Shown here: positions 24,655 through 29,653 of the stretch, piece after piece | How positions within the stretch are numbered: position 1 is the first letter of the stretch | How the letters are laid out: each line of letters starts with the position of its first letter | Source of the DNA: Syntrophomonadaceae bacterium | Lineage (GTDB): Bacteria > Bacillota > PH28-bin88 | Assembly (NCBI GenBank): GCA_018333865.1 | Contig: JAGXSE010000060.1 | Span: 1-41,422, forward strand | DNA: 41,422 nt | Direction of reading: 5' to 3' | Position numbers and translations under genes: made by a program | The notes under the pieces: generated by a model | Database searches by the model: none | What the model was told of the DNA's origin: nothing | The model's input: the letters and a program-made list of their open reading frames with translations, nothing else

Positions 24655-24684
24655 TTGCCAATTTTTAAGTTGTTGTGGTAAACT
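24655..24684 (+). promoter_or_regulatory. Promoter of the glycine riboswitch-gcv operon
   Basis: TTGCCA (24655-24660) and TAAACT (24679-24684) are 18 bp apart. Transcription would start near 24691, about 25 nt before the first aptamer stem, which is a sensible arrangement. Confidence 0.65.
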
Positions 24685-24736
24685 GAGGATGCAAAAAAAA
24701 TATTGCTGGATGATCCCGGTGGAAGAGTCCTTATTT

Positions 24737-24954
24737 GGGGACATTCCGTGCCCTGTTTTACTTAAGCGGGCATATCCCTGTTGCTTTAGTTTTAATACAT
24801 TCTACAGCAAAGAGGGATTTGTAAGCGGTGCGTCCCCTTTCCATTGGGGACATTCCGCGCTCTGTCCTACTTAAGCTGGGATATCCCTGTTGCTTTAGTT
24901 TTAATACATTCTGCGGCAAAGAGGGATTTGTAAGCGGTGTGTCCCCTTTCCATT
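24737..24954. repeat. Two tandem 109-bp self-complementary elements inside aptamer I
   Basis: Unit 1 (24737-24845) and unit 2 (24846-24954) are direct copies differing at about nine positions. Each starts GGGGACATTCCG and ends CGGTGyGTCCCC plus TTTCCATT, so its ends pair. An inner imperfect stem (TCCCTGTTGCT with AGCAAAGAGGGA) makes the whole unit a hairpin. The pair sits exactly between the CCTT and AAGG strands of P3a of glycine aptamer I. The form is like a REP or MITE-type mobile repeat; no transposase gene is nearby. Confidence 0.85.
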
Positions 24955-25211
24955 AAAGGCGCCGAAGGAGTAACCGCCAGGTTTGGTGAACCTGCGGGAA
25001 ACTCTCAGGTACAAGAACCACCGGAGAACAGACCTCTGGAGAGTTTCTTCCCGTAAGAAGAACACCAAAGGGGACCCGGATTTAACACCAACCACTCAAT
25101 CAATAACGATAAACGGGACGGGCAACATCGGCAAAGACACCACAATCGTCATCCCGTGATCACGAGATTGAGTGCTGGGCTATATCTGTGACAAATCTCT
25201 CAGGTTTCAGG

Positions 25212-25252
25212 ACAGAGGAAAGGCACCATGCCTTTCCTCTGTTTTTATTTTT
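25212..25252 (+). terminator. Riboswitch-controlled terminator before gcvT
   Basis: ACAGAGGAAAGGC (25212-25224) pairs perfectly over 13 bp with GCCTTTCCTCTGT (25230-25242), with loop ACCAT and a T-rich tail (TTTTTATTTTT). It shares CAGAGG with P1 of glycine aptamer II, giving mutually exclusive structures. Confidence 0.92.
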
Positions 25253-25290: not shown

Positions 25291-26379
25291 ATGGAAGAAC
25301 ACCAGGGATTGAAGAAGACCCCGCTTTATCACGCACATCTGGCGGCAGGAGCCAAAATAGTGGAATTCGGCGGGTGGGCCATGCCGGTGCAATATACCGG
25401 AATTATCGCGGAACATCTGGCTGTGAGGTTAAAGGCCGGGTTATTCGACGTATCCCATATGGGAGAGATCAGGCTCCAGGGTCCTCAAGCACTGAAGACA
25501 GTCCAGTTTTTGCTCACCAATGACGTCTCCCGGTTGGAAACCGGCCAAATAATTTATAGCCCCATGTGCTTTGCGTCCGGCGGGGTTGTCGATGACCTCC
25601 TGGTATACCGCCTGGGTCTGGATGACTTTCTCCTGGTCGTCAACGCTTCCAATATAGCCACGGATTTGGAGTGGATCAAAGAACACTGCTTCAAAGATGT
25701 ATCAATCATCGACCAGTCCCCGTCAACAGCGCTGCTGGCTGTTCAGGGTCCACTGACAAAAGAGATTCTCCAGAGGTTAACGGAAGTGGATTTGGCGTCC
25801 ATTAAATACTACCGGTTTGCCTTTGGCCAGGTTTGTGACATTGAATGCTTGATCTCCCGGACCGGTTATACTGGTGAAGATGGCTTTGAGCTGTACTTCG
25901 ACGCTCAATACGCAGCAGAATTATGGCACCAGATCATTGCCACCGGATCGCCCGATGGTCTGATCCCTATCGGATTAGGGGCCAGGGATACCCTCAGGTT
26001 CGAAGCCGGCTTGCCGCTATACGGCCAGGAGCTTTCAGCAGCGATCACCCCCCTGGAGGCAGGGCTTAGCCGCTTTGTTAAGCTAGAGAAGGAAGAATTC
26101 ATCGGCAAGGAGGCTTTAAGGGCACAAAAAGCCAGCGGCATCCCCCGCAAACTGGTGGGACTGGAAATGGTGGATCGAGGCATCCCCAGAACAGGCTACG
26201 CAGTAACTTGTAAAGGACAGGAAACCGGGTTTGTCACCTCCGGCACTTTTGCCCCCTGGGTGCAGAAAAACCTGGCGATGGCCTTAGTCGGCCAAGATGC
26301 GGAGGGCGATTTGGAAGTCTCAATCCGCGGCAAAGGCCACCAGTGCCAAAGGGTACCTTTACCTTTTTACAAAAGATGA
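25291..26379 (+). CDS. gcvT: Glycine cleavage system T protein (aminomethyltransferase)
   Basis: Transfers the methylene group from aminomethyl-lipoyl GcvH to tetrahydrofolate, releasing ammonia. The 362-residue length is normal. Motifs: [26 protein letters not shown] at the N-terminus in two blocks, [40 protein letters not shown] and [24 protein letters not shown] 25291 is fixed by AGGAGGTGA 7 nt upstream; the open frame extends 21 codons further back into the terminator and is not used. It is the first gene of gcvT-H-PA-PB under glycine riboswitch control. Confidence 0.97.
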
Positions 26380-26459: not shown

Positions 26460-26849
26460 ATGAACACACCTCAGGAACTGTTATACAGCAAGGAGCACGA
26501 GTGGGTAAGAACCATCGGAAATAAAGTCGTGGTAGGCATTACTGATTATGCGCAAAACTCTTTGGGCGATCTGGTGTTTGTAGAACTGCCCCAGGTTGGC
26601 AGCCAAGTAACAGCCGGAAGCTTCTTTGCTGTCGTTGAATCAGTTAAGGCTGCTTCCGATTGTTACTCTCCCGTTACCGGCAAAGTGGTGGCCGCAAATG
26701 AAGCCTTGCTGGAGGCCCCCGAACTGATCAACCAGGACCCCTATGGCCAGGGATGGATCATGGAGGTGGAGCTTCTGGACGGCAAACTGCCGGATGATCT
26801 GATGACTGCAGAACAATATGTCAAAATGATTGCAGAGGAGGGGCAATAG
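26460..26849 (+). CDS. gcvH: Glycine cleavage system H protein
   Basis: Lipoyl carrier shuttling intermediates among P, T and L proteins. At 129 residues it is normal, with the lipoylated Lys63 in VESVKAASDCYSP and the C-terminal family stretch NQDPYGQGWIMEVEL. In LipM organisms it also serves as the platform for lipoate assembly, which ties it to lipM downstream. ACAGGAGG lies 10 nt before the ATG. No gcvL (dihydrolipoamide dehydrogenase) is in this operon. Confidence 0.97.
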   Translation: MNTPQELLYSKEHEWVRTIGNKVVVGITDYAQNSLGDLVFVELPQVGSQVTAGSFFAVVESVKAASDCYSPVTGKVVAANEALLEAPELINQDPYGQGWIMEVELLDGKLPDDLMTAEQYVKMIAEEGQ

Positions 26850-28202
26850 GTGGCCTACATCCCCCACACGAACGAGGACCGGCAGCAGATGCTGGAAGCG
26901 ATCGGGGTAAAAAATATTGAGGAACTCTTGACAGATATCCCTGCTGCCGTCAGGCTCAATCAGCCCCTTGACATTCCCGCTCCCATGCCAGAAATGGAAC
27001 TGGCCGCACATATCAGGAGCTTGGCCGGCAAGAACCTAAACCTGGATGAATACGCCTGTTTCCTGGGGGCCGGCGCTTATGACCATTATGTGCCGAAGGC
27101 GGTTGACCAGCTGTTGCTCAGGTCTGAATTCTATACTGCTTATACTCCTTATCAGCCGGAAATCAGCCAGGGCACCCTCCAGGCTATCTTTCAGTATCAG
27201 TCCATGATCTGCAACCTGACCGGCATGGACGTAGCCAACGCCTCCATGTACGACGGGGCCAGCGCCATGGCCGAAGCGGCCTTAATGGCCTGCGACCTGG
27301 CCAAGCGGGAAAAAATTATCATCTCCCGCTCTGTCCACCCGGAGTACCGGGAAACGGTGTTGACCTATGCCCACGGCAAAGGGTTGGCTGTAGCGGAAAT
27401 ACCCCTGGAGGATGGAATCACCTCCCTTGCCCACCTGGAACAAGCCCTGGATCATCAGGCTGCGGTTGTCCTGATCCAGCACCCCAACTTTTTCGGCTGC
27501 CTGGAACCAGTGCAGGAAATCGGCGAACTGGCCAAAAAAAACCAGTCTCTCTATGCCGTGGGTGTCGACCCGGTTTCTTTGGGCCTCCTGGCGCCGCCAG
27601 GGGACTACGGGGCAGACATCGTTATTGGAGAAGGCCAGAGTTTGGGCGGCCATGTCAGCTTCGGCGGGCCCTTCCTGGGGTTTTTAGCCTGCCGGGACAA
27701 GATTGCCCGCCGCCTTCCCGGCCGCATTGCCGGCCAGACTGTGGACAGCCATGGCCGCCGAGGGTTTGTACTTACGCTGCAGGCAAGAGAACAACACATC
27801 CGGCGGGAAAAGGCCACTTCCAACATCTGTTCCAACCAGGCCTTAATGGCTTTGACCGCTACTATCTACCTGTCGCTGGTTGGCCCTGAGGGTATAAAGC
27901 AGATAGCTGAACTGTCCCTGCAAAAAGCCCACTACCTTTATGAACAAATGACCAGGCTTCCCGGGGTTAAGCCAGCCTTTAACCAACCATTTTTCAAGGA
28001 ATTTGCGGTTAAAGTCGGCCCGCCGCCCGCGCAAATCAATAATTCTCTGCTGAAACGACGCATTATCGGCGGCCTGGACCTGGGCCGGTTCTACCCGGAG
28101 TTATCCGGGCACATGTCTTTTTGCTGCACCGAAAAACGCACCAGAGCCGAAATCGACGACCTGGTGGCAGGAATGGAGGAATCCCAATGCCAGAACCTTT
28201 GA
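26850..28202 (+). CDS. gcvPA: Glycine dehydrogenase (decarboxylating) subunit 1
   Basis: N-terminal half of the split P protein. The 450-residue protein has the fold-type I aminotransferase-like layout without the PLP lysine: [70 protein letters not shown] and [28 protein letters not shown] in part. It works as a heterotetramer with GcvPB. The start is GTG at 26850 immediately after the gcvH stop, with GAGGAGGGG inside the end of gcvH as ribosome site, indicating tight coupling. Confidence 0.97.
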
Positions 28203-29653
28203 TCTTTGAATTAAGCTCGCCTGGGCGGCAGGGCTTAACATGGCCCGCACCGGATGTCCCAGTACGCGATATTACAGAGTTAATCCCGGCCAAAGCCTTG
28301 CGCAGGGCTGCCCCCGAGCTGCCGGAAGTCAGTGAACAGGATACAGTGCGGCATTTTACCAGGCTTTCTTCCTTAAATTATGGGGTGGACACCGGGTTTT
28401 ACCCTTTGGGTTCCTGCACCATGAAGTACAACCCCAAAATCAATGAAGACGCAGCCAGGCAGCCGGGATTTGCCCGCCTGCATCCCTACCAGGACCCGGC
28501 AACCTGTCAAGGAGCCCTGGAATTGATGTATCACCTTGACCAGTACTTGTGCGAGATCACCGGCATGCACAAGTTTTCCCTGCAGCCGGCAGCAGGCGCC
28601 CACGGCGAGCTGCTCGGGCTATTGGTCATCCAGTCCTACCACCAGAAGCGCCAGGATTTTCGCCGCAACAAGGTGATTATCCCCGACGCGGCCCATGGCA
28701 CCAACCCGGCCACCGCCGGTCTGGTGGGGATGGACGTCATCCAGATCCCTTCCGATGCCAGGGGCGGGGTGGATCTGGCCAGCCTGCAGGCCGCCCTGGG
28801 GGAAGATACGGCGGCATTGATGCTGACTAATCCCAACACCCTCGGGCTTTTTGATGAAAATATTCAAACCATCGCCGAAATGGTTCACCAGGCAGGCGGG
28901 CTTGTTTACTACGACGGGGCCAACTTGAATGCCATTATGGGCCTGACCCGTCCTGGCGACATGGGGTTTGATGTCATCCACTTAAACCTGCACAAGACAT
29001 TTGCTACACCCCACGGCGGTGGTGGACCCGGGGCAGGTCCCGTCGGAGTTAAGGATTTTTTAGCGCCTTTTCTGCCCAAGCCCCTTGTGGTCCAGGACAG
29101 CCAAACTGGCCAATACCGCTTTGAAGAAGATATGCCCCAAACCATCGGCCGGATGAAGGCCTTTTACGGCAATTTTGGCGTGCTGGTAAAGGCCTATACC
29201 TACATCCGGGCTTTGGGAGGTGATGGTTTAAGAAAGGTGAGCGAACACGCTGTACTGAACGCCAATTATCTGCTGCATTTGTTGAAAGACCACTACCACC
29301 TGCCTTACCAGCGCCACTGCAAGCACGAGTTTGTGATCACTCCTGCCCCCCAGGTAAGGAAGGAAGGAATTCGCACCCTGGACATTGCCAAACGGCTCTT
29401 AGATTTTGGCTACCACCCCCCAACGATCTACTTCCCCTTGATTGTGGAGGAAGCTATAATGGTAGAACCTACAGAAACAGAAAGCAAAGAAACCCTGGAC
29501 CAATTCGCCAGGGCGATGATAGCTATTGCGGAGGAAGCCATGTCTGACCCGGCCAAGCTGAAAGGCGCCCCTTATACCACGCCGGTCAGCCGCCTGGACG
29601 AGGTTACAGCCGCCCGCAAACCTGTCCTGCGATGGAAACCCACCCGGAATTAA
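28187..29653 (+). CDS. gcvPB: Glycine dehydrogenase (decarboxylating) subunit 2
   Basis: Catalytic PLP half of the split P protein, decarboxylating glycine and passing aminomethyl to GcvH. The 488-residue protein carries the PLP lysine in [18 protein letters not shown] and the glycine-rich loop around it, plus [14 protein letters not shown] and [18 protein letters not shown] 28187 has GGAGG 6 nt upstream and overlaps gcvPA by 16 nt; upstream extension of the frame to 28121 lies inside gcvPA and is not used. It is the last gene of the operon. The 107 bp to the queA stop show no clear terminator. Confidence 0.97.

Follow-up and report, generated by a model that had tools for sequence, protein, structure and literature searches.

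The gcv locus and its tandem glycine riboswitch

The window, that is, the whole stretch of DNA analyzed, is a 41,422-nt contig (JAGXSE010000060.1, assembly GCA_018333865.1) of a Syntrophomonadaceae bacterium of the phylum Bacillota. It contains an intact gcvT-gcvH-gcvPA-gcvPB operon, upstream of which lies a tandem glycine riboswitch with two aptamers (Table 1). Two features of the tandem gcvT type of the Rfam family RF00504 are both present: the riboswitch is followed by an operon for glycine metabolism, and its expression platform shares sequence with P1 of aptamer II. A candidate sigma-70-like promoter was located by consensus scan with a score of 9/12, a level at which about one match is expected by chance. 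The GGATGA motif preceding the aptamers, which belongs to the leader type (kink-turn/P0) that is a feature of tandem glycine riboswitches, is identical in a paralogous riboswitch of the same genome and in the orthologue of the sister genus G001.

The expression platform is a strong intrinsic terminator. Its 5' arm, ACAGAGG, extends into the P1 3' strand of aptamer II, and the terminator region is 90-96% identical in the paralogue and in family relatives. Since this arm is shared with P1 of aptamer II, a glycine ON-switch is predicted: in the absence of glycine, the ACAGAGG strand would join the terminator, and in its presence the strand would remain paired within P1 of aptamer II, so that transcription would continue by antitermination.

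Table 1. Positions of the leader elements, repeats and gcv genes in the window, and of the insert in the sister genus G002 (last row)
Feature	Position	Strand	Basis
Candidate sigma-70-like promoter of the gcvT leader, TTGCCA-18-TAAACT, TG before -10	24655..24684	+	Consensus scan only
GGATGA leader motif 5' of P1, kink-turn/P0 type leader	24708..24713	+	Comparison with paralogue and G001
Aptamer I, P1 5' strand, CCGGTGG	24716..24722	+	7 perfect pairs with 25018-25024
Aptamer I, P2 5' strand, CCTT	24729..24732	+	Direct reading, pairs with AAGG; name per PMC13104608
Repeat A copy 1, 109 bp, P2 loop	24737..24845	+	Repeat search
Repeat A copy 2, 109 bp, P2 loop	24846..24954	+	Repeat search; 92% identical to copy 1
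Aptamer I, P2 3' strand, AAGG	24956..24959	+	Pairs with CCTT
Aptamer I, P3/glycine-pocket core, GCGCCGAAGGAGTAA ... CTCTCAGG	24960..25017	+	Rfam RF00504 match
Aptamer I, P1 3' strand, CCACCGG	25018..25024	+	Pairs with 24716-24722
Aptamer II: P1 CCTCTG/CAGAGG, P2, P3, P3b extended by repeat B	25033..25218	+	RF00504, 24.5 bits
Repeat B, 92 bp, inverted ends CCAACCACTCAATC ... GATTGAGTGCTGGG, P3b loop of aptamer II	25088..25179	+	Inverted arms
Intrinsic terminator, expression platform	25209..25245	+	17-pair stem plus T run
gcvT, aminomethyltransferase	25291..26379	+	Pfam GCV_T, 1.2e-92
gcvH	26460..26849	+	Pfam GCV_H, 7.5e-43
gcvPA	26850..28202	+	Pfam GDC-P, 1.5e-136
gcvPB (start approximate)	28190..29653	+	Pfam GcvP2_C, 3.1e-29, and GDC-P, 1.6e-14
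P2 insert of the G002 gcvT riboswitch	G002:C91:14831-14938 (L049, G002:C91:11000-17500)		Dispersed repeat search

Insertions in the outer loops of both aptamers

In the nomenclature of PMC13104608, each glycine aptamer is divided into P1, P2 and P3, and glycine is bound in a pocket of P3 located at the base of P3a. By this scheme, the hairpin that follows the GAGAG-type joining strand and precedes P3 is P2. An initial annotation of this DNA had placed the interrupted hairpin of aptamer I in P3a, which is wrong by this nomenclature, and the helix that it named P2 (AGAGT/ACTCT) has no counterpart in the Rfam structure. On the other hand, its description of the insert itself was borne out by a repeat search: a 109-bp unit (repeat A) occurs exactly twice in the hairpin loop, in direct orientation and at 109-nt spacing, and the P1 helix that it reported is intact. 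The self-complementary ends described for the unit are exact in copy 2 (GGGGACA/TGTCCCC), but in copy 1, whose end reads GCGTCCCC, only GGGGAC/GTCCCC can pair. Chance or an assembly artefact was rejected as the source of the doubled unit, because the two copies differ at 9 positions and relatives of the unit are present on other contigs. The empty P2 loop of aptamer I would have read CCTT-ATTTATTA-AAGG.

A second and unrelated element, repeat B, was identified at the tip of P3b in aptamer II, with inverted ends of 14 nt. The riboswitch contains in total three repeat copies of two unrelated kinds, in the outer loops of both aptamers.

Both insertions affect the matching of the aptamers to the Rfam glycine model. 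In a search against Rfam, aptamer I was matched at 37.1 bits (RF00504, gathering threshold 32), with its 5' half wrongly aligned to the end of the repeat, in our reading because so long an insert could not be spanned. From leader position 268 to 390, the P3/glycine-pocket core of aptamer I is 85% identical to the paralogous riboswitch. Aptamer II scored below the threshold, its insert being taken as a 118-nt gap, and the low score may reflect the long insert. Such insertions would explain why automatic annotation misaligns or under-scores switches of this kind.

Repeats A and B as dispersed genomic repeats

The initial annotation had also proposed a genome-wide search for the 109-bp unit, and repeat A proved to be present in at least 16 other places of the same genome. 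Of the 18 matches returned by a search with one unit, 16 lie outside the window; searches with the leader sequence and with a pattern built from both repeat ends added further places, giving approximately 16-18 beyond the window pair. When set in register, the copies have a common start (GGGGACATTCCGCG) and end (AAGCGGTGTGTCCCC-NTTCC) and a variable middle, and simple copies are about 100-122 nt long, short and without a long reading frame of their own. In the consensus of nine copies, the terminal inverted repeats form 12 pairs between GGGGACAT-CCGC and GCGG-GTGTCCCC. By its dispersal, length and inverted ends, repeat A may be described as a MITE-like unit, roughly 100-116 bp in size. Most of the copies examined are located between reading frames or overlap frame ends only, and no match to the unit was found outside the source genome among 40 relatives searched.

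Two more tandem pairs of repeat A were found in the source genome, on contigs C27 (spacing 116 bp) and C5 (spacing 105 bp), so doubling is a habit of the repeat A family in general and is not peculiar to the riboswitch. The copies in the window are 92% identical to each other versus 63-71% to the other aligned copies; being mutually closest, they were most likely doubled after insertion.

At least five relatives of repeat B were found in the source genome (C66:179299-179387, 79%; C9:50134-50181, 88%; C25:6326; C66:8387; C9:22240). Among 20 loci of this genome, no other copy of repeat A or repeat B was found inside a known Rfam RNA. To characterize the insertion sites, the joined flanks of 12 repeat A sites were compared with shuffled flanks, and no clear preference for hairpin loops was observed (p 0.15-1.0). 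As no site beats its shuffled flanks, the common feature of repeat A sites appears to be A+T-rich flanks and not a hairpin. ATT is found on both sides of the insert in the window, other copies are without a constant duplication, and the flanks are T/A-rich. In some repeat A copies (L028, L030, L035), a palindrome, GGGGACATTCCTGTCCCC, is nested together with a short repeat of its own, suggesting that repeats were inserted into repeats.

Repeat A resembles MITEs, REPINs and RAYT-associated repeats (PMC10969869, PMC3116915) in being short, non-coding and dispersed, with inverted ends and sometimes in tandem. It differs from them in that no consistent target duplication was seen and that, at the eight Y1_Tnp loci examined (the only transposase type considered), no repeat A ends adjoin the gene. 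The source genome has 10 Y1_Tnp matches, and five of the eight loci examined are flanked by repeats of the GGGGACGGTTCTTG type, not of the GGGGACATTCCGCG type. The idea that repeat A is a REPIN of these Y1_Tnp genes is unsupported, the flanking repeats being of another type. The repeats beside the RAYT-like Y1_Tnp genes (L041, L042, L044, L045 and L047) are of the GGGGACGG(GG)TTCTTG type and are often inverted; their ends resemble repeat A in GGGGAC only.

Empty sites and a parallel insertion in a sister genus

The source genome contains a second tandem glycine riboswitch (C71:58887-59117, L048), which is uninterrupted. Its P2 (CCTG-TTTTG-CAGG) and P3b are both short, and it lies upstream of thioredoxin-reductase and thioredoxin-like genes, in an operon that is likely of the glycine-reductase type. 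The leader motif, core and platform are common to this paralogue and the window riboswitch at 85-94% identity. The comparison of the same locus in relatives, which the initial annotation had called for, revealed an empty site in the gcvT orthologue of sister genus G001, where P2 and P3b are again short and free of inserts. The short P2 in both the paralogue and the G001 orthologue indicates that the insertion in the window is derived. Moreover, neither the paralogue nor the orthologue of G001 or of G002 contains repeat B.

The proposal that a mobile-type repeat was inserted into a peripheral loop and then doubled is supported by the dispersed copies, the empty sites and the mutual closeness of the two window copies. 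The initial annotation had regarded a lack of other genomic copies, combined with the same long loop in all relatives, as an argument against a mobile insertion, and neither was found.

A different repeat occupies the orthologous site in sister genus G002. There, GCCCGT and ACGGC in aptamer I flank an insert of about 108 nt in the P2 loop, upstream of a visible GcvT start. A search of the G002 genome gave 52 matches to this insert, some of them on both strands of one place and many at full length with 75-81% identity, and its sequence is related to neither repeat A nor repeat B. None of its copies lay inside a known RNA in the nine G002 loci scanned. The presence of different repeats in orthologous P2 loops of two genera points to independent invasions. 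By sequence comparison, three independent insertions in glycine riboswitches of one family can be traced to dispersed host repeats. Repeat B and the G002 insertion, both missed by the initial annotation, form the stronger part of this account. The P2 loops of glycine aptamers are often A+T-rich, and tolerance together with an A+T preference would be enough to explain P2 as the site; the hairpin-preference test of repeat A sites gave no evidence of loop targeting.

Predicted folding and function of the interrupted switch

The reading put forward here, to which a probability of roughly 0.78 is given from sequence comparison and folding models, is that a tandem glycine ON-riboswitch was hit by two small-repeat families, that the insertions were tolerated and that the switch is still predicted to work. 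In favor of a working switch, the gcv operon is intact and the terminator is strong. Presumably by mobility, repeat A would have entered the A+T-rich terminal loop of P2 in aptamer I, followed by tandem doubling, and repeat B (about 92 bp) would have entered the terminal loop of P3b in aptamer II. Both invaded loops are distal to the pocket for glycine, which is in P3, and also to the dimer contacts described for P1, P3 and the P3a/P3b junction (PMC13104608). This would explain why the insertions were tolerated, and P1, the cores and the platform may have been maintained by selection.

It had been suggested that the elements could fold as separate hairpins without disturbing the aptamer, and this was only partly upheld by the folding models. 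In the isolated aptamer I model, P1 is kept, with a pair probability of 0.96-1.0 in the presence of both repeats, but that of P2 falls from about 0.9 without the repeats to about 0.15 with them, and the two copies of repeat A can pair with each other. In the isolated aptamer II model, all expected helices are formed, with repeat B as an extension of P3b.

For the whole leader, the free minimum energy structure (MFE, -200.6 kcal/mol) sequesters the P1 5' strand of aptamer I with repeat A copy 2, and the native-constrained fold (-197.9) is worse by 2.7 kcal/mol, in models that leave out ligand energy, tertiary energy and co-transcriptional folding and cannot decide the state of the switch. This mispairing, like the low P2 probability, would be expected if the riboswitch were dead or crippled, the repeats trapping the 5' strand of P1/P2 and leaving gcv constitutively off, constitutively on or controlled by aptamer II; the loss of aptamer I could be tolerated, judging from a B. 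subtilis result reported in PMC13104608. However, P1 of aptamer I is perfect although the repeat A copies have diverged by 8%, the core strings and the leader motif are retained, and the native fold comes within the small difference given above before any ligand or tertiary energy is counted. A dead or crippled switch is considered unlikely.

A working switch might also have gained something from its repeats, which could have been recruited as a kinetic delay, or as sites for RNase III or proteins, that tune the response. Repeat A adds 218 nt before aptamer I is complete, and repeat B adds about 92 nt between aptamer I and the terminator decision, lengthening the time from completion of the former to the terminator. 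The hairpins are strong (copy 1 alone folds at -39.9 kcal/mol with a z-score of -4.05; leader z-score, -6.14), and three independent insertions have occurred in gcvT glycine riboswitches of one family. Set against this, a comparison of nine copies of repeat A shows double changes in only 3 of 20 pairs, by which the interpretation of this repeat as a conserved structured RNA was rejected, and its end stems, nearly invariant among these copies, are as expected of terminal inverted repeats. In addition, the repeat of the sister genus is unrelated in sequence, and the paralogue and the G001 orthologue do without any insert. Recruitment of this kind is given a very small chance, and for the added function, such as protein binding, that the initial annotation had envisaged, no evidence was found. 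A broader version, in which peripheral loops of gcvT riboswitches in this family are recurrent landing sites of mobile repeats and the hairpins now set timing or dynamic range, also seems distinctly improbable. If it were true, the hairpins would delay folding, extend the ligand-binding window or be processed, and mobile repeats would be a source of riboswitch domains.

Relation to known systems

STRR repeats were reportedly described by Vioque in 1997 in cyanobacterial RNase P RNA, and they resemble the repeats in the tolerated, tandem-repeat-bearing switch favored here in that repeated sequence is tolerated in a peripheral helix. The same likeness holds for the selfish IVS elements in helices 9, 25 and 45 of 23S rRNA (PMC4990558), although RNase III cuts IVS out of a stable RNA, whereas the host RNA here is a regulatory switch.

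Compared with the B. subtilis gcvT type (RF00504), the window riboswitch is alike in its two aptamers, single platform, GGATGA leader, terminator overlap and gcvT operon, and differs in the 218 nt of repeat A in P2 of aptamer I and the roughly 92 nt of repeat B in P3b. Long, poorly conserved insertions at fixed peripheral positions are as such familiar: many riboswitches tolerate long non-conserved stem-loop insertions that spare the core (Barrick and Breaker 2007, PMC2258182), and the N. gonorrhoeae gcvT riboswitch has a 73-nt 'P3 loop' in aptamer 2 (PMC13104608), as described in the available parts of both papers. The insertions reported here are of the same peripheral, core-sparing form, but in those parts no origin is given for the inserts, whereas here they correspond to dispersed genomic repeats, one of them doubled. 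A closer case is the BOX repeat in the pneumococcal trp leader (PMC3049150), a mobile-type repeat co-transcribed with two T-box riboswitches that still seem to work; BOX lies between the two RNA elements, whereas the present repeats are inside aptamers. The mainly open literature yielded no closer precedent than this case for repeats or MITEs within riboswitch aptamers, nor was any example found there of a repeat traced inside a riboswitch aptamer, which is seen here at two sites of the same RNA and once more in a sister genus.

The origin of riboswitch insertions is rarely traceable, and the three cases described here trace to dispersed host repeats. Dispersed repeats in aptamers offer a concrete route by which structured RNAs can gain domains, much like IVS in 23S rRNA, and at least some 'extra' riboswitch domains may originate in this way.

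Long P2 helices elsewhere in the phylum

The length of P2 was also surveyed in 399 genomes of the phylum. Exact patterns identified 82 aptamers with 5-35 nt between GGAGAG and GGCGCCGAAGGAG, and four plausible aptamers with long P2 inserts of about 65-120 nt (in G021, G171, G233 and G278), figures that serve as a guide only, as exact patterns miss variants, including the window riboswitch itself. The remaining long-P2 pattern matches look like chance. A long P2 thus appears to be uncommon yet not unique among glycine aptamers. Its interpretation as an ancestral feature was rejected, P2 being short in the paralogue, in G001 and in most sampled aptamers.

The P2 inserts of G021 and G233 have no other copy in their own genomes, and that of G171 has one partial match of 45 nt at 83% identity in its own genome, which is suggestive only. 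The four long-P2 riboswitches are located at L161 (G021), L163 (G171), L162 (G233) and L169 (G278). In G171, a match to the molybdenum-cofactor riboswitch adjoins the glycine riboswitch on the opposite strand.
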